Shown piece after piece: positions 3,494 through 11,942 of a stretch of 12,340 nucleotides of DNA (its first letter is position 1; each line of letters starts with the position of its first letter). The position numbers and the translations under genes are program-made. Under the pieces are notes generated by a model. That model ran no database searches and was not told the DNA's origin. It saw only the letters and a program-made list of their open reading frames with translations. The stretch lies in assembly GCA_016840125.1 (NCBI GenBank), contig JAEOSY010000139.1:1-12340 (forward strand). Direction: 5' to 3'. Source of the stretch: Candidatus Helarchaeota archaeon. Its GTDB lineage: Archaea; Asgardarchaeota; Lokiarchaeia; Helarchaeales; HEL-GB-A.

Positions 3494-5089
3494 TTATTTG
3501 TTTTTAATGACATAAGCATTTTTGATCGATGAATATTCATTACCGAAATTATCCATTACAGTTAATTTTACCTCGTGTTGGCCAATTTTATTAAAGAACT
3601 GTGGAACAATTGGAGCGTGCACCTCTTTTTTACCATCAATTGTCCATTTTAAACTGACAATGATTCTGTCTGTACTCAAATAGGATGTTAAATATAGAAG
3701 GGCGGTGGTACCTTTGATCATTGGATTGGGTATAATATTGAAATTGAAATAGATATCCCCTCGTTTAGTGGGATCGGGTTTATTAGGAAAAGAAATCCCT
3801 TTCCTATCGGCTTCTCTAATAAGATTGGTTGGGGTTTGATGTAATTTATGCAATATTTCTAGATGTGCCTTTGCAGTCCGCTCTAATTGATCCGGTAGTA
3901 CTTTATCGGCGGTATCTTCAATGGTGTGATAGAATATTCCCTTTCCAATCATCATGATACTTGGTACTTTTGCCGCAACTAATGGCCCTAAATCTGAATA
4001 GGGACCCGCCACCGCGGAAACATGCATTGCAGGAAATAAATGGTATTTAAACACCGCATCTGAGAGGAACTCGAAGAGAACTTGGTTATCCGTAGTAAAT
4101 AATCCCTTGGCTTCATCTAATTGCGTTCCAATAACATTCCGTGAGGGACTCGCGAGAGTGAAGCCCTTCGAACCAAAACCATCAACCATGCAATAAGTGG
4201 ATATTTTATCGAACCATTCGTGATGCGTTCTGGCGAATTCTATCACCCCAATCGATCCCACTTCATGCCCTGCGAATCCAGCGAAGACCATGGTTTTTTT
4301 TCTGTCCTTTTTTGGAATTTGGCTGAAATAATGCGCAATTTCCAGAAATCCTGCGTTGCCACCTGCGTTATCAATGGCTCCATCAAACCAACTGTCAATG
4401 TGAGTACCAATAAGGATGATTTCATCTTGTTTTGTACCTGGTAAAGTTCCAATTAAATTGTCAGTTGGAGCAGGTTTAATACTTGTTTCTAGCAAAATAC
4501 TTGCTGTCAATTGTTCCTCCGATTGCATTAACGCTTTCAGATATTGACCCGGTTCTAATCCTATATACAAGGAAGGAATGCTACCACTTTGAAGATCTGT
4601 ATCTTTAAATGTTTGATGACGGGTTGCGTATTCCGCAAAAATAGTGCCTGGGGGTGTATCATGTATTCCAATGAGCCCAAGTGCTCCCTTTTTTCTTGCC
4701 CGCTCATAGGCGCGGAAAAAATCCATGGTAGGAAAAAAATTCATCATACGAAATGAATCTACAACAATAATTTTTCCTTTAACTTCCTTTCGCTTGAATT
4801 CCTTCTCTGTCCCTAAACCCACATAGACTAATTCTGCCTCAATCCTCCCCACTTCGGCTGAATTGGAATGCCAAGCAGGTAAGCAATTAATTATTGTTTC
4901 ATTATTCGGGAGAGAGTCACATTTGACTGTCAGATCCCATTTGGTGGGGGTATATAATAACATTTCAAAGGGCTCTAAGCGCGTATCCTGAAGCCCAAAT
5001 TCATCAAACTTTTTAAGAATGAACTCTGCAGTCTGATGTGCTTCAGGAGTACCTGGTCTGCGCCAGCCTATCTTAATAAAATCCATCAT
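3494..5089 (-). CDS. M28-family zinc metallopeptidase with PA domain and C-terminal beta domain
   Basis: The 531-residue protein opens with RRPGT (10-14), the usual lead-in of M28 aminopeptidases. A protease-associated insert spans about 85-205 (VKGKIIVVD, ARKKGALGLIGI). The catalytic domain carries the family zinc sites: His230-x-Asp232 in GTHIDSW, bridging Asp240 in IDNAGG, Glu276 in AGHE, Asp303, and His388 in FYHTIEDTAD. The position normally held by the catalytic Glu of the EE pair is His275. About 95 C-terminal residues look like a PKD-like beta domain ending KLTVMDNFGNEYSS. Known members trim amino acids from peptides or proteins. No signal peptide is visible. The frame is coding-like for 22 more codons upstream (to 5155), without any start codon, up to a stop in the 38-base repeat. 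The 5' end may therefore have been cut. Alternatively, TTTAAGAA in the repeat may be the promoter and ATG 5089 the start. Confidence 0.85.
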   Translation of the reverse strand: MMDFIKIGWRRPGTPEAHQTAEFILKKFDEFGLQDTRLEPFEMLLYTPTKWDLTVKCDSLPNNETIINCLPAWHSNSAEVGRIEAELVYVGLGTEKEFKRKEVKGKIIVVDSFRMMNFFPTMDFFRAYERARKKGALGLIGIHDTPPGTIFAEYATRHQTFKDTDLQSGSIPSLYIGLEPGQYLKALMQSEEQLTASILLETSIKPAPTDNLIGTLPGTKQDEIILIGTHIDSWFDGAIDNAGGNAGFLEIAHYFSQIPKKDRKKTMVFAGFAGHEVGSIGVIEFARTHHEWFDKISTYCMVDGFGSKGFTLASPSRNVIGTQLDEAKGLFTTDNQVLFEFLSDAVFKYHLFPAMHVSAVAGPYSDLGPLVAAKVPSIMMIGKGIFYHTIEDTADKVLPDQLERTAKAHLEILHKLHQTPTNLIREADRKGISFPNKPDPTKRGDIYFNFNIIPNPMIKGTTALLYLTSYLSTDRIIVSLKWTIDGKKEVHAPIVPQFFNKIGQHEVKLTVMDNFGNEYSSIKNAYVIKNK

Positions 5090-5137
5090 GGACTCATATA
5101 GCTGAGAACCTGAAATCTGATCAATGGTTTTAATAAT

Positions 5138-5175
5138 AAATCCCTTCTTAAACTGCTATGTCATTGAATATCAAG
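5138..5175. repeat. 38-base direct repeat, copy 1
   Basis: Begins AAATCCCTTCTTAAACTGCT and ends TGAATATCAAG. It matches 6249-6286 in 37 of 38 positions (A5170 versus G6281), with no similarity beyond the ends. This copy lies between the 5' end of the M28 frame and the remnant of a dehydratase-like gene. On the minus strand it supplies the stops that close both frames. Together the two copies bracket a 1.1-kb segment with a toxin-antitoxin pair. Confidence 0.85.
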
Positions 5176-5268
5176 ATTTTTTCTTGATATCTGCTTGCCA
5201 AACAAAAAGCGATTATATTCCTGTTCCTTTATGCTTTCAAGATACTCTTTCGGGGTTTTTAAAGTCAC
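5161..5268 (-). pseudogene. 5' remnant of a 4-hydroxybutyryl-CoA dehydratase / HpaB-type hydroxylase gene
   Basis: A GTG at 5268 with a good ribosome site (GAGAGG, ending 7 bases upstream) opens a 35-residue frame reading VTLKTPKEYLESIKEQEYNR, then FLFGKQIS. This matches the start of the 4-hydroxyphenylacetate 3-hydroxylase / 4-hydroxybutyryl-CoA dehydratase family, whose members begin with a Thr-x-x-x-Tyr-Ile-Glu-Ser-Leu segment followed by a Val-Tyr-x-x-Gly-Glu-x-Ile strand. Full members are about 500 residues. Here the similarity ends near residue 28, where a perfect inverted repeat starts, and the frame stops at TGA inside the 38-base repeat. A TATA-like box lies about 30 bases upstream, so the remnant may still be transcribed. 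The family call rests on a short segment and should be taken as likely, not certain. Confidence 0.5.
5168..5190. repeat. Perfect 9-bp inverted repeat at the junction
   Basis: ATATCAAGA (5168-5176) and TCTTGATAT (5182-5190) are perfect inverted copies around five T. The left arm overlaps the last bases of repeat copy 1. The right arm lies where similarity of the dehydratase-like remnant ends. No such hairpin is present at copy 2. It may be an end of a lost element or a weak terminator. Confidence 0.55.
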
Positions 5269-5290
5269 AATTCATCCTCTCATAAGGTGA

Positions 5291-5304
5291 GCATATATAT
5301 TCGG
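5291..5304 (-). promoter_or_regulatory. Candidate promoter of the dehydratase-like remnant
   Basis: On the minus strand CCCGAATATATATG places a BRE-like CGAA directly before a TATATATG box (5293-5300). The box centre is about 28 bases before the GTG at 5268, so the transcript would be leaderless or nearly so, which fits poorly with the strong ribosome site. Confidence 0.4.
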
Positions 5305-5329
5305 GCAAATGGCGATTGATATTTATCTC

Positions 5330-5842
5330 TTATTTGATTTTATTAATTATTTTACTAACTAATTTAGGGTGAAACCTATACTCTTCTACATGAGTTTGAA
5401 TATTTTTCAGAAGATTTAGCGTATCCTTTTTATTTATTCTACCGAGTTTATAAGATTTTAAAATAATTCCCAAAGTTCCTACAACTTGAAATCCTTCAGA
5501 TTGCATTACAATTCTTACTTTATTTTCATTCGCTAAACAATATGATACATTAAAATCTTTCGCCAAGACAATGATAGAACTTTCCCCCTCATGAATACTA
5601 TATTTTTTCATCATCGCCGTAACTTCATTTTTTTCAACCTGTTTTACTATAATTAGCTCTTTTTGTAAAAAATCTTTTAGGACAAATGCATCCTTTTTTT
5701 CTAAGGCTATTCCTTGCGTAACAGTTTCATTGTAAACAATATCCGAAATATAAATCCTTGAAAATTGATCTTGTAAAAGTTCTAGTCTATTTAATTTAGA
5801 AAGATGAATAAGAACATCGGAATCACTTACTGCCAAAAGCAT
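5330..5842 (-). CDS. PIN-domain toxin, DUF3368 type (VapC-like)
   Basis: The 170-residue protein has the layout of DUF3368 PIN nucleases, which cleave RNA and act as toxins paired with UPF0175 antitoxins. Visible marks are Asp7 in AVSDSDVLIHLSKLNRLELL, Glu39 in DIVYNET, Glu87 in HEGES, and the closing VVGTLGIILKSYKLGRI (120-136). The usual second acidic pair before Arg110 (commonly Asp-Asp) is Asn105-Glu106 here, so the metal site is altered though not empty. The ATG at 5842 lies within the end of the antitoxin gene (20-base overlap) and is served by GAGGAATT about 8 bases upstream, which is a typical coupled arrangement. The last 25 residues form a basic tail. The pair sits between two 38-base direct repeats and next to gene remnants, consistent with a mobile or plasmid-like origin. 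Activity cannot be judged from sequence. Confidence 0.8.
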   Translation of the reverse strand: MLLAVSDSDVLIHLSKLNRLELLQDQFSRIYISDIVYNETVTQGIALEKKDAFVLKDFLQKELIIVKQVEKNEVTAMMKKYSIHEGESSIIVLAKDFNVSYCLANENKVRIVMQSEGFQVVGTLGIILKSYKLGRINKKDTLNLLKNIQTHVEEYRFHPKLVSKIINKIK

Positions 5843-6077
5843 AAGTTAATTCCTCATCTAATTCCTTTTTCCCCAAGTCCAAATATATTCTATTTTTTGC
5901 TAGAATTTCTTGCATTTCTCTATAAGATATTTTTAAAATTTCTGCAGCTTGGCGAAGGCTCAATTTTTGTTCCCTATAAAGCTCAAAAACGAGTAAAATT
6001 AAAATCTTACTTTGTGGATCATCCTCTAAATAAGGTCGCAATTGAGGAGGAATTTCAAATTTAATGGAGTTTTCCAT
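5823..6077 (-). CDS. UPF0175-family antitoxin
   Basis: The 84-residue protein has the marks of UPF0175 proteins: an N-terminal strand (IKFEIPPQL), a long helix (ILILLVFELYREQKLS) and a helix-turn-helix-like segment LSLRQAAEILKISYREMQEIL at about 39-59, followed by a C-terminal region that would wrap around the toxin. Members are antitoxins of DUF3368 PIN nucleases; they usually bind the operator of their own operon as well as the toxin. It is the first gene of the pair and overlaps the toxin by 20 bases. The start ATG (6077) has AGGT about 8 bases upstream, and a TATA-like TTATAAATG lies about 24 bases upstream, so the transcript probably begins close to the start codon. Autoregulation is expected from the family, but no clear operator palindrome was seen. 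Confidence 0.8.
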   Translation of the reverse strand: MENSIKFEIPPQLRPYLEDDPQSKILILLVFELYREQKLSLRQAAEILKISYREMQEILAKNRIYLDLGKKELDEELTYAFGSK

Positions 6078-6095
6078 TTAAATAACCTAATATTT

Positions 6096-6106
6096 CATTT
6101 ATAATT
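6096..6106 (-). promoter_or_regulatory. Candidate promoter of the toxin-antitoxin operon
   Basis: AATTATAAATG on the minus strand is a TATA-like box centred about 24 bases before the antitoxin ATG. A second AT-rich box (TTTAAAAG) lies just upstream. The surrounding 60 bases are nearly all A/T, so the exact box is uncertain. Confidence 0.4.
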
Positions 6107-6141
6107 AACATTCTTTTAAATTAATAAATCAATCTTTATTT

Positions 6142-6248
6142 TTAAGTTTGACGAACGTTCTTAAAAATTATCCTACAGCTACTGCTTTGGCACCACTTTT
6201 AGTCACATTGACTTCCTTTGAATGGGGAAATCATCCCCCATATACACA
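6142..6248 (+). pseudogene. Internal remnant of a second DUF1152 gene
   Basis: Bases 6160-6246 align without gaps to 7030-7116 of the intact DUF1152 gene downstream: 69 of 87 bases and 25 of 29 residues agree (LKNYPTATALAPLLVTLTSF against LKNHPTATALAPLLVTLTPF). Most differences are at third codon positions, so this copy was under selection as a protein before it was broken and is not a fresh duplicate. The N-terminal ~225 residues and the C-terminal ~50 residues are absent. On the right, similarity stops where the 38-base repeat begins; the frame runs on through the repeat to TGA at 6310-6312. No start codon or promoter of its own was seen. Confidence 0.75.
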
Positions 6249-6286
6249 AAATCCCTTCTTAAACTGCTATGTCATTGAATGTCAAG
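6249..6286. repeat. 38-base direct repeat, copy 2
   Basis: This copy matches 5138-5175 in 37 of 38 positions and lies in the same orientation. It joins the DUF1152 remnant on its left to the promoter region of the intact DUF1152 gene on its right. It lacks the hairpin that follows copy 1. Confidence 0.85.
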
Positions 6287-6296
6287 GAATAACACC

Positions 6297-6342
6297 TAAT
6301 TTAAGTTTTTGAAAATAAATTCTTTCTTACCTTACATGAGGG
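6297..6342 (+). promoter_or_regulatory. Promoter and ribosome site of the DUF1152 gene
   Basis: TAATTTAAG (6297-6305) is a TATA-like box, predicting a transcript start near 6328. GAGGG (6338-6342) is a good ribosome site ending 6 bases before the ATG at 6349 and supports that start. The box lies just outside the 38-base repeat. Confidence 0.45.
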
Positions 6343-6348
6343 TTTTGT

Positions 6349-7281
6349 ATGACCGAAAAGTCTTCTCCAACTCACTCCTATATTGGAATCGATCACATGC
6401 TGACTAAGGTAAAAAGAGTTTTAATTTCTGGAATCGGCGGCGGTGGGGATGTTTTAACTGCGTTGCATGTTCGATGGGCTCTTGAGAAGATAGCTCCCCA
6501 TATTGAATGGGTACAAGGTGGCATTACAGGCGCTGATATCAATCATTTTGAACACCTTATTAAGTTAGATGAGACTTCCGCTTGGGTTACAGAAAAGAGC
6601 CGTAGCTCGCCACCTCACAGATTAATCGAGACCGATATTGCGGAACACCTCCAAGAAAAAATTTTCCTCCTCTCCTGCTATCACGGGATCCAAAACATGG
6701 TCCAGAGTTTGAATAAACTAATTGAGTTCAAGAAGATTGACATGGTGATTTTTATTGACGGTGGTACGGATTCCCTTACTTTTCAAGGGAGTTCAGTCAT
6801 TTCCCCCGTTGAAGATACGATGGGTTTAGCTGCAATTGGATTAGGAGAATACTCTAGTATTTTAAAATACAGAGTTGCAGGTGTTTCGGTGGTTGGTAGC
6901 GATGGAGAAATGATGCTGGACGAAATCGGGAATCAATTACTAAAAATATCTAAAAAAGGGGGGTACCTTGGAGGAACCTTTTTTCCAGTTGAACGTTTAA
7001 AAGAATATGCCGGACTTATAACTAAAATACTCAAGAATCATCCTACGGCAACTGCTCTAGCACCACTTTTGGTTACACTAACGCCCTTTGAATGGGGAAA
7101 ATATCCACCTTATACCCCTTTTACAAATGGATTTCAGCTCGCTACCTTTCTCTTCGATGCCCAAATTGCATCTAATGTGGGGAATGATTTTACTTCATTA
7201 ATTTTTGATAAATCCTCTCGTAAAGATGCAAAGAAAGCTATTTATGAAGCCCTTAAACAAAATCCACGAACGAAGGTTTGA
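6349..7281 (+). CDS. DUF1152 family protein
   Basis: The 310-residue protein matches the largely archaeal DUF1152 family, whose function is not established. Marks are a strand followed by a Gly-rich loop GIGGGGD (28-34) that resembles a nucleotide-binding turn, IDGGTDSL (136-143), SPVEDTMG (152-159) after it, and the late ALAPLLVTLTPFEWGKYPPY segment. There is no membrane segment or signal peptide, so it is probably cytoplasmic. Length is typical as far as I recall. The ATG at 6349 is backed by GAGGG six bases upstream. The stop (7279-7281) directly abuts the stop of the convergent histidine kinase, leaving no room for a terminator. A broken paralogue lies just upstream, so DUF1152 genes were once in tandem here or this locus recombined with another copy. 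The Gly-rich loop suggests ligand binding; anything more would be a guess. Confidence 0.8.
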   Translation: MTEKSSPTHSYIGIDHMLTKVKRVLISGIGGGGDVLTALHVRWALEKIAPHIEWVQGGITGADINHFEHLIKLDETSAWVTEKSRSSPPHRLIETDIAEHLQEKIFLLSCYHGIQNMVQSLNKLIEFKKIDMVIFIDGGTDSLTFQGSSVISPVEDTMGLAAIGLGEYSSILKYRVAGVSVVGSDGEMMLDEIGNQLLKISKKGGYLGGTFFPVERLKEYAGLITKILKNHPTATALAPLLVTLTPFEWGKYPPYTPFTNGFQLATFLFDAQIASNVGNDFTSLIFDKSSRKDAKKAIYEALKQNPRTKV

Positions 7282-10200
7282 TTAATCTGTTGGTAAAATG
7301 ATTGTCGCCTCTGTTCCTCTACTAAAAACACTCTTGATTGTAAGCTCGCCGCCATGTTTTTCAACTATACCGCGGCTAATTGATAAACCAAGTCCCGTCC
7401 CTTTCCCGACACCCTTCGTGGTAAAGAAAGGTTCGAAGATTCTTGTAATGTCTTCATTTCTGATCCCCTTACCATTATCTTTTATCTTTATTTCTAATTT
7501 GTTCTTATTCCTCCCTATTCTAACAACAATTTGAGGTTGGCGTGAGATTACCTCGAGAGCATCAATTGAATTTTCTATAAGATTTTGTATAACCTGTGAG
7601 ATCAACGTCTGATCCCCTTTAATACTAACATCCTCTTGTATTCCCAACGAAATCTGAATATTACTTTCTTTTAATTGCTTTTTTAATGCGGGATAATTCA
7701 TTATTTCAGTTAATAGAGTGGAAATTGAAAATATCTGCTTTTTTATTTCGATTTTTCTTGAAAACTGAAGGAGATCTTTAACAATTTTTGCACAGAATTT
7801 CACTTGTTTCTTTATATCTAATATCTCTGAACGCAATAGGTCTGGATTCGGCACTCTATTTTCTTTCTCAAGAAAATTTTCTAGATATTCAGCGGTCAAA
7901 TTGATATTCGCTAAAGGCGTATTGAGTTCATGAGCTACACCCGCTTCTAGTTGACCTTCTGCCGCCAGTTTGCTTTTTTCTTGAATTTGTTCCTCAGATT
8001 CCTTCAGTTTTTGTTCAGCCAGTTTACGGGCGGTAATATCTTGTATTCGGGCCTGAATGAATACACTATGTCGAAATTCAATTATAGAAGCTTCTAAACT
8101 TACCCACAACAAACTCCCATCTTTTTTGTGAATTAAAAGCTCCACCGGTTCTGTAATGCTCCCTGTTAATCTATTCTTAGCTTTTTCTACTAGAACAGAT
8201 GATATTTCTCCAAGACTATTTCCTATTAGTTCTTCTTTTTCAAAGCCAAAATACTGGATAGTTGCAGAGTTGCACTCTCTAATCGTACCGCTGATATCCA
8301 TCAATATTATGGAATTTGGCGAATTTTCGAATAATTCTCGATATTTTTCCTCCGATTCTGTTAATTTTAATTCAGCTTCTTTTCGCTCTGTTATGTTTCG
8401 GACAATTCCCTGGATATATTTATTTCCACCTACCTCAATGAAGGAAGCTTGAATGTCGACCCATATGAAATTTCCGTCTTTTGTAGAAATTTGAAGTTCT
8501 AGTGGATCCGGAACCGTACCTTTGAGTAATATTTCAAACATCCTTATTAATAAAGGAAAGTCTTTAAACTGAATTATTCCTTTCATATCCTGAAAGTTCT
8601 TTCCAATTAATTCCTCCTTACTATATCCTAAATATTGAGACGTTACATGATTACAGTCAATAATCTCTCCTTTATTGTTTGCGAGTATTATTGCAAATGG
8701 GGTTTTTTCAAATAGATGCCGATATTTTTCCTCGGATTCCTTTACTTTTTGGATCGCAGACTTTTGTTCAGAAATATCTCTCAGAGTGATAAGATAGCCA
8801 TCAACATTTCCTTCCTCGTTGTAATGCGGCTTGGTTGAACTTGCTAGCCAAATATAATAGCCCTTTTGATGTAATGCCCTAAATTCAACTTCTGGAGTGC
8901 TCCCAACTCTATGTTCCTTAGCGGATTTCCAAAAAGTATCTAACAACTTTTGGACATCATCCGTATGGATGAATTTACTCACAGCAATCAGATCATCCCC
9001 CAGTATCTCCCTCCCTACCAACTTAGTGAATTGGGGGGATTGATAGTGCAATTTTCCATCAAATCCTATAATCACCACTGCATCTTTCACATTTTCGATT
9101 ATATTCCGATATTTTTTCTCGGATTCTTCCAGCTTTTTCTCCATTAGCTTACGGACTGTGATATCATGTGCAATCACGTTAATAGCTCGCTGTCCTCTAT
9201 AAGTAATAAGACCTGCTCGAACTTCTACCTCTACTTTGCTCCCATCTTTCTTTCTATAGAGTTGTTCTCCAAGAAAACTGCTTTGCTCTTTCAGAATTTG
9301 GTGGATCTTCGCATCTACAACCCGCCGTTCTTGTGCAACAATATCATATATTGATAGTTCCTGTATCTCCTCTACGGAATACGCAAATAAATGCTGAAAT
9401 GCATAATTAGCCTTCAATATTCGACGTGTTTTAGGCTCAACAACGAACATGCAATCTGAAGTTTTACTATTAAGAGTTTCTTCAATTAATATCTTTTCAG
9501 TAATATCTCTACTCACAGAAAGTAATCTTTGTTTCCCATCCGTCCCTGTAAATACTTTTCCCCTTGATTCAATCCAAATATATTCACCATTCTTCTTCTT
9601 AAATCTAACTTCAGCTATTGCCTCACTTCTTTTGAATATTTCTCGAAGATAGGTTTTCAGTTTATCATGATCACTCGGATGTATTAAATCGCGCGCATTT
9701 ATATTCCTTACATCATCAAAGAAGTATCCCACCAGTTTTGAAAATGAATTATTCACGTATTCATAGTTAAAATCTGAATTTATTATAGAAATCGAATCAG
9801 ACACATTTTCCGTAATGAGGCGGTACTTTTCCTCAGATTCTCCGAGTTTATCTTCTGCCTGCTTTCGTTCAACGGCAGCTCCTATAGCTTGAGACGAAAT
9901 CTGAAGGAGTTTTATATCAGTATTACTCCAATGACGCGATTCTTGAATTTGATCTAAACCTATAAACCCTAAAGTCCTGGTTGAACCTAAAACCGGGAGT
10001 AACAAAAGCGATTTGATGCTCTGTCCCTTTAATATTTCCTTTTCCGCTTTATCTTCATCGGAAAGTTCCGATATATCTCCAACATTAATAATTTTTCCCA
10101 GACAGAGTTTCTTCATCCATGATAAAAAATGCTCAATAAAAAGATTTTGGAGATTATTTTTTTGCGGAACGACTCCTTCAGCACACCATTCATGAGTATT

Positions 10201-10746
10201 ATTTATTTGAGTTTTATCATCGCTAAGTAGGAATATATATGCCCTACTTGCATCACTTAATCTACCTATATCGGCAAGAGTTTTATCAATTGCCTCGTTG
10301 AGTTTTTTAACACCAAGAAACCGTGAAGTTATTAAGGAACCTACTTTCTCCAACTCAAAACTTTCTCTTAGGGCTTCCTCAGCTAGCTTCTGCTTTGTAA
10401 TATCCTGTACTATTATTTGTATTAATCTCTTTTGTCTTAAGTGAATTATAGCACTTTGAAACTTAACCCAAATAAAATTTTTATCCTTCAGATTAAGTGG
10501 AATTTCGATTGAATCTAAACTAAATCCTTTCAATATCGCCTCATGGTAATGCTTTAGAACTCCAGAATACTCTTGAGAACTGAAGAATTCAAGAAAATTC
10601 TTTGATATTAACTCTTCTTTCTTAAATCCCAACATTTTTTCGGTAATTGGATTCAAATTTATAATAAATCCATCCAAATCCACCAATAATGCTGCAAAAG
10701 GTATATTTTCAAAGAAAATTGGATAAATATCTTCAGCTTCTGTCAT
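7282..10746 (-). CDS. Multi-PAS/GAF soluble histidine kinase
   Basis: The 1154-residue protein is a sensor kinase. Domains in order: PAS (about 5-125), GAF (135-295), then five PAS domains (305-420, 430-535, 545-665, 675-790, 800-910), and the kinase core. In the core, HisKA carries the phospho-acceptor His939 in AGVAHELNTPL. The ATPase domain shows the N box (QVIQNLIENSIDAL), DNGKGI (about 1090-1095), FEPFFTTK and GKGTGLGLSI (1114-1123). All catalytic boxes look intact. PAS domains are joined by helical linkers reading KLxESEEKYR. No membrane segment is present, so it senses cytoplasmic signals; PAS and GAF domains bind haem, flavin or small ligands, but the cofactors cannot be told. It lies 65 bases downstream of the response regulator on the same strand, its likely partner. 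A TATA-like ATTTAAAC near 10801-10808 could also give it its own promoter. Confidence 0.92.
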   Translation of the reverse strand: MTEAEDIYPIFFENIPFAALLVDLDGFIINLNPITEKMLGFKKEELISKNFLEFFSSQEYSGVLKHYHEAILKGFSLDSIEIPLNLKDKNFIWVKFQSAIIHLRQKRLIQIIVQDITKQKLAEEALRESFELEKVGSLITSRFLGVKKLNEAIDKTLADIGRLSDASRAYIFLLSDDKTQINNTHEWCAEGVVPQKNNLQNLFIEHFLSWMKKLCLGKIINVGDISELSDEDKAEKEILKGQSIKSLLLLPVLGSTRTLGFIGLDQIQESRHWSNTDIKLLQISSQAIGAAVERKQAEDKLGESEEKYRLITENVSDSISIINSDFNYEYVNNSFSKLVGYFFDDVRNINARDLIHPSDHDKLKTYLREIFKRSEAIAEVRFKKKNGEYIWIESRGKVFTGTDGKQRLLSVSRDITEKILIEETLNSKTSDCMFVVEPKTRRILKANYAFQHLFAYSVEEIQELSIYDIVAQERRVVDAKIHQILKEQSSFLGEQLYRKKDGSKVEVEVRAGLITYRGQRAINVIAHDITVRKLMEKKLEESEKKYRNIIENVKDAVVIIGFDGKLHYQSPQFTKLVGREILGDDLIAVSKFIHTDDVQKLLDTFWKSAKEHRVGSTPEVEFRALHQKGYYIWLASSTKPHYNEEGNVDGYLITLRDISEQKSAIQKVKESEEKYRHLFEKTPFAIILANNKGEIIDCNHVTSQYLGYSKEELIGKNFQDMKGIIQFKDFPLLIRMFEILLKGTVPDPLELQISTKDGNFIWVDIQASFIEVGGNKYIQGIVRNITERKEAELKLTESEEKYRELFENSPNSIILMDISGTIRECNSATIQYFGFEKEELIGNSLGEISSVLVEKAKNRLTGSITEPVELLIHKKDGSLLWVSLEASIIEFRHSVFIQARIQDITARKLAEQKLKESEEQIQEKSKLAAEGQLEAGVAHELNTPLANINLTAEYLENFLEKENRVPNPDLLRSEILDIKKQVKFCAKIVKDLLQFSRKIEIKKQIFSISTLLTEIMNYPALKKQLKESNIQISLGIQEDVSIKGDQTLISQVIQNLIENSIDALEVISRQPQIVVRIGRNKNKLEIKIKDNGKGIRNEDITRIFEPFFTTKGVGKGTGLGLSISRGIVEKHGGELTIKSVFSRGTEATIILPTD

Positions 10747-10800
10747 ATTATCTCATTCCTTTTTCTATCAGGTCAGTACTAAAGAATTTTTTTATCTGGA

Positions 10801-10816
10801 GTTTAAATAAATTAAG
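10801..10816 (-). promoter_or_regulatory. Possible internal promoter of the kinase gene
   Basis: AATTTATTTAAAC on the minus strand overlaps the last codons of the response regulator and lies about 58 bases before the kinase ATG. A transcript from it would have a leader of about 30 bases containing AAAGGAATGAG as a ribosome site. In such AT-rich DNA this may be chance. Confidence 0.25.
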
Positions 10817-11942
10817 TTTTAGAAATTTCTGAATAATTAAAAACTCTAACTTGAGATTGAGGATCTGAAAATCCCAATTTTTCTAAAAGTAAAATTAATT
10901 CAGCAAAGTAAATGCCTCTCGAAGAGAGATTATAAAGGTTTTCTTCTTTTACCAGAATATTCCCTTGAACTAATTTATTCATATGGAATGCAAGAATTGA
11001 GGAGCGGTCCACATTCAATTTTTTAACTATTTTGTTAAAATTTAAACTATCTTGTGCTTTCAAGAGCGATATAATGTTTTTTCTTAAAGGATGCGATAAC
11101 AATTCAATTATATTGTGAAAGACGGGATTTATTAAAATCGAAAAAGCGTCATGTAATAAAGACTGGTAATTTGTTTTCACAAAATCATCACTATCTATGA
11201 GAACAATCAAGGAAAAATTAGAAGAAATTATATCTGATTGTAAATATATAAGAAATTGCTTAAAATCAATCCACTCATGGATCTTTAAAAGTTCCTCAAT
11301 TCCTTTTAATATTATAGTTCCTTTCTCATTTTGATTCACAAAATCTTCAATAACAGATTTAATCATATATAGTTTGGTTGGGGCAACCGTATTCTCATCC
11401 GCTTCATGAGTCAGCCAAAGGGGTATTCCTTGACTAATCTTTAAATTATTGATAATTTTTTTTGGATCTCCATCTGATATTACTAAAACGGGGCTATTAT
11501 AGTTGTTTAAATCTCCCATTTTCAAAAATTCACTCTTTTCTAATTTTTGAACGCCTTCTGGAATTACTAGATTAGTCCTTAATTCTAATTCCGATTCAAC
11601 TTCTCTTATTTTTGATTTTAATAGAGCAAATTCAAATGGTTTTAATATATAATCATAAGCACCAGCTCTGGTTGTTTGGACTGCAGATTCGATTGTTCCA
11701 TAACCTGTTATTACAATAATCATTGAAGTACAACCTGTTCCCCTGATTTCATTTATCAAATCTACTCCTGATAATCCTGGCATCTTTAAGTCCATTAAAA
11801 TCAGATCAAATTGGTCTTCATTTAACATCAATATTGCTTTTTCACCAGAGATTGCAGTGACTATTGAATGATCTTCCAAACTTAAGATTTTTTCCATTTT
11901 AGCTAAGAACGTCTCATCATCGTCAATAACCATTATTCTCAT
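10812..11942 (-). CDS. Response regulator: REC-DUF835-winged helix
   Basis: The 376-residue protein has three parts. A receiver domain (1-118) is complete: acidic pocket Asp7-Asp8, phospho-acceptor Asp51 in LMDLKMPGLSG, Thr79 and Lys101 in ILKPFE. The middle (about 148-265) matches DUF835, an archaeal domain of unknown role, with PLWLTHEADENTVAPTKL, then GTIILKGIEELL and SLIVLID. The C-terminal part (about 273-355) is an ArsR-like winged helix (LLSHPLRKNIISLL, then DRSSILAFHMNKLVQGNIL and the wing ENLYNLSSRG), expected to bind DNA. So the protein should be a phosphorylation-controlled transcription factor. That is less common in archaea, where many receivers lack a DNA-binding output. The kinase gene follows on the same strand. 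The ATG at 11942 has a TATA box about 25 bases upstream, suggesting a leaderless message. Nearby repeats at 12012-12143 may be its targets. Confidence 0.9.
   Translation of the reverse strand: MRIMVIDDDETFLAKMEKILSLEDHSIVTAISGEKAILMLNEDQFDLILMDLKMPGLSGVDLINEIRGTGCTSMIIVITGYGTIESAVQTTRAGAYDYILKPFEFALLKSKIREVESELELRTNLVIPEGVQKLEKSEFLKMGDLNNYNSPVLVISDGDPKKIINNLKISQGIPLWLTHEADENTVAPTKLYMIKSVIEDFVNQNEKGTIILKGIEELLKIHEWIDFKQFLIYLQSDIISSNFSLIVLIDSDDFVKTNYQSLLHDAFSILINPVFHNIIELLSHPLRKNIISLLKAQDSLNFNKIVKKLNVDRSSILAFHMNKLVQGNILVKEENLYNLSSRGIYFAELILLLEKLGFSDPQSQVRVFNYSEISKT

Follow-up and report, generated by a model that had tools for sequence, protein, structure and literature searches.

Introduction

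Toxin-antitoxin (TA) genes and restriction-modification genes are in general known to select against their own loss. Small TA cassettes lying between short repeats, with no recombinase of their own, occur as Xer/dif modules, and a TA pair with its own promoter can constitute an integron gene cassette, archaeal ones included. Restriction-modification genes have been described to insert with a long target duplication (Nobusato 2000 and Furuta 2010, as cited in PMC3874152 and PMC3031569), of the order of 100 bp (PMC3874152), and such insertions of restriction-modification systems are also treated in PMC2654758. For TA pairs, the literature that we searched, with subscription journals mostly outside its scope, held no description of bracketing of this kind.

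Here we describe a 12,340-nucleotide stretch of DNA from a Candidatus Helarchaeota archaeon (the window, meaning the whole stretch that was analyzed) in which a TA cassette, flanked on either side by a copy of a 38-bp direct duplication, has probably been inserted between the divergent genes of an M28 peptidase and a DUF1152 protein (Table 1). Like the restriction-modification insertions as the cited accounts portray them, the locus combines an addiction-type pair with the lack of a linked mobility gene and with a long, variable direct duplication as bracket; unlike them, it has TA genes as cargo, an archaeon as host, a duplication of only 38 bp, and gene remnants inside. Xer/dif modules are similar in being small TA cassettes between short repeats, but the 38-mer of the window lacks their two inverted 11-bp arms around a short spacer. 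With integron cassettes the locus shares a TA pair with a presumed promoter of its own, but neither an integrase nor an attC-like palindrome was recognized: the Rfam scan of the window was empty, and the general, not attC-specific, scans gave only a 9-bp hairpin at the left junction.

Table 1. Features of the bracketed locus (positions in the window)
Feature	Positions	Strand	Basis or remark
M28 peptidase gene	3494-5137	-	listed ATG at 5089; homology to relatives up to 5131
Left copy of the 38-bp direct repeat	5138-5175	+	sequence comparison
9-bp perfect hairpin	5168-5190		spans the junction of left repeat and insert
Gene-start stub, 31 codons, likely HpaB_N-like	5176-5268	-	GTG start at 5268
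DUF3368 PIN-type toxin, 170 aa (predicted)	5330-5842	-	PADLOC; AlphaFold/Foldseek; Pfam below cut-off
UPF0175 antitoxin, 84 aa (predicted)	5823-6077	-	Pfam; PADLOC
AT-rich presumed promoter of the TA pair	6078-6150	-	base composition
Internal DUF1152 gene piece, 95 bp	6151-6245	+	alignment to the resident gene
Right copy of the 38-bp direct repeat	6249-6286	+	differs from the left copy at position 33 only (G for A)
Intact DUF1152 gene	6349-7281	+	beyond the right repeat

Results

The preliminary description of this DNA had reported a pair of 38-base repeats in the same orientation, identical at 37 of 38 positions and about 1.07 kb apart, and exactly this pair was recovered, enclosing 1,073 bp. 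From base composition, ~3e-12 such pairs are expected by chance, and the runner-up site for the 38-mer within the window has 16 mismatches. The insert has a GC content of 29%, against 39% in the flanks, and contains, from left to right, a gene-start stub, the DUF3368 toxin gene and the UPF0175 antitoxin gene, all on the minus strand, followed by a piece of a DUF1152 gene on the plus strand; outside the repeats lie the M28 peptidase gene at the left (minus) and an intact DUF1152 gene at the right (plus). Open reading frames of at least 50 aa in the insert comprise the TA pair, one of 86 aa antisense to the antitoxin gene, and two short ones over the remnants, and no mobility gene was recognized among them. 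Shuffling the surrounding 200 bp yields a hairpin like that at the left junction in ~1% of cases, and the sole mismatch between the two repeat copies falls inside it. Positions 7282-11942 encode a protein of 1,154 aa, by inspection sensor kinase-like with repeated segments, next to a response regulator with DUF835.

The enclosed genes likely encode a PIN-type RNase toxin and its cognate antitoxin, with a putative toxic or defensive role; the UPF0175/DUF3368 assignment made previously was thereby borne out. The antitoxin matches Pfam UPF0175 with an E-value of 5e-14 (52.2 bits against a cut-off of 27.9). Both proteins match the UPF0175/DUF3368 pair of PADLOC, PDC-S70, the toxin at 3.9e-21 and the antitoxin at 0.002, and the genes overlap as they do in that pair, the antitoxin gene end with the toxin gene start by 20 bases, whereas the toxin falls short of the curated Pfam cut-off for DUF3368 (5.5e-5, 23.4 bits against 27.3). 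An AlphaFold model of the toxin is confident (pLDDT 94.6), and its best PIN match in Foldseek is 1o4w (1.9e-5), with VapC20 at 3.8e-4; residues D7, D9, E39 and E87 are invariant in 12 aligned relatives. Upstream of the pair, GC content drops to 12% at positions 6101-6150.

Among the relatives of the window proteins, the closer named ones are mostly Helarchaeota. A toxin relative of 94% identity (P0018) comes from a contig of 30,854 bases, a length absent among the listed DUF1152 and M28 relatives, lending slight support to an insertion, while an M28 relative (P0044) and a DUF1152 relative (P0011) come from contigs of equal size, 41,325 bases. Scans of genome contigs for relatives of the locus returned only distant bacterial DUF1152 loci. 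The 38-mer, the DUF1152 and M28 sequences and the toxin had no match in viral contigs, and positions 5100-6400 had none among plasmids and phages.

Both ends of the insert are occupied by gene remnants. The stub runs from its GTG start to a last base that adjoins the left repeat, so that the start of a gene is, as previously described, cut exactly at that repeat. Its assignment to the dehydratase/hydroxylase type fared less well: when the stub and 20,000 shuffles of it are scored with an N-terminal HpaB_N profile of 33 proteins, the stub comes second, and it had no match of note in Pfam, NCBIfam or the PDB and none in plasmids or in four bacterial genomes. A relationship to HpaB_N, of the 4-hydroxybutyryl-CoA dehydratase/hydroxylase type, is therefore likely but not proven from these sequence comparisons. 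At the other end, the proposed internal DUF1152 fragment was confirmed as a sharply edged piece, 78% identical to positions 7021-7115 of the intact gene and separated from the right repeat by 3 bp. Its 21 differences in 95 bases fall 6, 0 and 15 times on codon positions 1, 2 and 3. This pattern points to evolution as a coding sequence, either in another lineage or in another copy of the gene, and not to recent copying from its neighbor.

On the left flank, the M28 frame stays open upstream of the listed ATG as far as the left repeat and on into it; coding homology extends to 6 bp from the repeat. Many M28 relatives share an MKTIEQISG-like start, and Met1 of the relatives aligns with an ATT at 5134-5132, the second codon from the repeat edge. 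Either this unusual codon (start region 5129-5137) or an internal Met pair may serve as the start, and since the closest relative, P0035, is likewise called from an internal Met pair, the odd start may predate the insertion. The Shine-Dalgarno energy before the ATT is equaled at 20% of random places and thus does not identify the left repeat as a native leader of the M28 gene.

A survey was made in the bacterial phylum of genome G008, inferred to be Chloroflexota, in which a bracket was defined as a direct repeat of 25-400 bp with at least 80% identity and copies 0.5-2.5 kb apart. A first look found bracketing at 8 of 30 UPF0175 loci and 1 of 33 HpaB loci. The sample consisted of 100 listed UPF0175 places, mostly from the top of the list and in regions of up to 18.2 kb, of which the 81 with 1.5 kb on both sides were scored; 2,112 positions at least 3 kb from UPF0175 in the same regions served as controls. 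Brackets surround 20 of the 81 loci and 56 of the control positions, and draws from each region's own rate gave 1.6 expected cases and a maximum of 7 in 20,000 draws. For repeats with no third copy in the pool the counts are 8/81 and 27/2,112, respectively; in the remaining 12 of the 20 bracketed cases the repeat occurs again elsewhere in the pool.

Other gene families were compared with ~1.5 kb on each side, starting from 30 loci each for UPF0175, MazF/PemK, ParE and ribosomal L22 and 33 for HpaB, and excluding loci shorter than 2.9 kb. Bracketing was found at 9/27 UPF0175, 6/25 MazF/PemK and 3/26 ParE loci, compared with 0/30 for L22 and 1/32 for HpaB, L22 being the fairer control because the longer HpaB match leaves less room for a bracket; pooled, this gives 18 of 78 TA loci against 1 of 62 (Fisher 1.2e-4). 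In a second phylum, that of G001, 2 of 27 UPF0175 loci are bracketed, a figure that stands without a control from that phylum. Relative to the positions and genes that served as controls, direct-repeat bracketing is enriched around TA pairs in one bacterial phylum, where the pairs are often bracketed as if moving without an enzyme of their own.

In these bacterial loci the repeat corresponds to the start of the neighboring gene in L087 (68 bp) and L091 (166 bp), to its end or close to it in L104 (81 bp), L097 (311 bp) and L111 (76 bp), and to codons 7-32 in L081 (77 bp). In L104 and L091 a repeat copy is found 3-4 bases from the toxin stop, and in L267 and L261 a copy abuts the stop. Loci L087 and L091 have the order of the window, with gene start, copy, toxin end, antitoxin and copy, all co-directional, while in L097 and L111 the TA pair runs opposite to the neighboring gene. 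In L088 (G128), a relative of L087, and L102 (G216), a relative of L097, the junction of gene and TA pair is present and a second copy was not found; in both pairs of related genomes the TA genes stand beside the same gene, with the second repeat in one of each. A search with the joined flanks of L091 returned relatives with a single copy of the gene start and the second flank elsewhere, and no clean empty site.

Of 120 genomes in the family of L104, 53 matched some part of its joined flanks, and 20 regions of gatB were chosen (this and other neighbor-gene names, such as asnS, were read from the proteins). An extra gatB end lies downstream of gatB in 11 of 21 regions, L104 included, a share biased upward by the choice of genomes with a second piece. 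Pfam typing of ten cargo proteins, a scan outside which L266, L268 and L269 fell, identified a nucleotidyltransferase with HEPN in L262, PIN in L263 and L261, PemK/MazF in L265, DUF433 with DUF5615 in L267, DUF3368 in L104, a DUF2204-like nucleotidyltransferase in L278 and an aspartyl protease in L264; by inspection, the cargo of L268 and L269 is of no recognizable TA type. Empty sites, with asnS directly after gatB, were found in L277 and L280; in L274, gatB is followed by a DUF433/DUF5615-like pair and by no further gatB end. Varied small gene pairs, several of them of TA type, sit between gatB and a partial second end, which suggests a hot spot at the 3' end of this gene; in L261 three gatB ends stand in a row. 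The duplication extends 26-40 bases past the gatB stop in both copies of L263 and L278 and includes a promoter-like TTTTGATGTAAAAT or a variant of it, so that the cargo may use the copied promoter.

The copies of a bacterial repeat differ mainly at third codon positions. Ten cases from outside the gatB survey have 51 of their 81 differences there (p 0.003, with a rough 47% of our own as the expectation), and the gatB survey has 95 of 137; the L104 pair is counted in both tallies. The ten-case tally omits L078, for which the frame is uncertain, and L117, L173 and L225, for which none was found, and includes L097 with a frame set by hand; within it, L100 (3/9) and L213 (3/7) show no third-position excess. 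The gatB tally used 12 of 18 pairs, the other six being shorter loci of the same genomes, and in 8 of the 12 the second copy is nearer to the gatB end of another genome than to its own, same-genome loci excluded, although for several pairs the lead is slight and the comparison sets the closest of many genomes against a single one. In the bacteria, this third-position excess speaks against a target that was simply duplicated and of which one copy then decayed neutrally; one copy was probably imported from another lineage. The gatB copies often appear, by this sequence evidence, to be alleles of different lineages. They differ in this from the restriction-modification insertions of the cited reports, whose copies are presented as one duplicated target.

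Discussion

An insertion at the window is likely, and its mechanism is inferred. Insertion with a long duplication was one of the readings first offered for this DNA, and it is the best supported of them: the broken gene pieces abut the repeats, no mobility gene was recognized, and in one bacterial phylum TA pairs commonly have this architecture around them. What stands is the architecture, and the earlier reading as a whole is partly supported. In the insertion that we favor, the 38-mer would be the duplicated target, and the DNA inserted would have been larger than the TA pair, bringing a broken gene start on the toxin side and a foreign DUF1152 piece on the antitoxin side, possibly from a related lineage. 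No transposase would have been involved: ordinary recombination or repair would have joined the DNA, with homology at the neighboring gene on one side and illegitimate joining on the other. Once inserted, the TA pair, through its addictive effect, would disfavor descendants that lose it. Our comparison suggests a refinement of the long-target-duplication model in which imported DNA carrying a piece of a host gene may be joined at that gene, and the DUF1152 piece of the window, situated beside the resident DUF1152 gene, fits such joining. Relative to the gatB cassettes, the window has a short (38 bp), non-coding repeat and an insert with extra cargo on both sides.

The preliminary description had also considered a small element bounded by a fixed repeat, and an undescribed element of this kind, moved by a recombinase that acts in trans at the repeat (a transposase, integrase or Xer), would account for a short insert with TA cargo between direct repeats, as in Xer/dif modules and integron cassettes. 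We regard it as very improbable. The repeats of the analogous cassettes differ from one another, several being pieces of the neighboring gene, and no inverted 8-mer within 60 bp is common to the two ends of the insert. The best match of the 38-mer to Xer arms, 6/11, is the commonest value in 5,000 shuffles, and a Xer/dif site was rejected, as were a transposon or insertion sequence, terminal inverted repeats being absent from the insert ends, and site-specific integration at a tRNA, there being none anywhere in the window. Movement through the repeats themselves is somewhat less remote, though still doubtful: the 38-mers would recombine to release a circle with the TA pair and one repeat, which would integrate by a single crossover at the same short sequence. 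Direct repeats of 38 bp are compatible with such a circle, and the resemblance of the gatB copies to alleles of different lineages is what is expected if a circle brings a foreign gene end, but 38 bp is short for efficient homologous recombination, and the circle leaves the stub and the DUF1152 piece unnecessary.

The window is probably a whole contig of 12,340 bases of uncultured origin, and its gene pieces stop at the repeat or at most 3 bp away, as they might if unrelated fragments had been joined at a shared 38-mer during metagenome assembly or binning; the k-mers used in assembly span a range that includes 38 bp. An error of this sort seems unlikely to us, since the insert itself must have existed between two 38-mers, the copies differ at one base, and the architecture recurs in many bacterial assemblies, some with contigs of at least one megabase. 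Compared with these alternatives, the insertion of a TA cassette with duplication of 38 bp remains the reading that we prefer. A broader proposal, which we put forward tentatively, is that TA pairs are widespread recombinase-free mobile cassettes carrying the end or leader of a host gene, of which the Helarchaeota locus would be an archaeal example. Such cassettes would enter by recombination at the same host gene, the recipient's own end becoming the second repeat, and hot spots such as the 3' end of gatB would accumulate them.

Small chromosomal TA pairs spread with no mobile element in sight, and for the question of how they do so, TA bracketing with gene-end copies that look like alleles of different lineages provides a measurable signature. 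The gatB-asnS site is a bacterial hot spot at which TA spread between related species can be tested, and the window described here would carry TA bracketing into the Asgard archaea.
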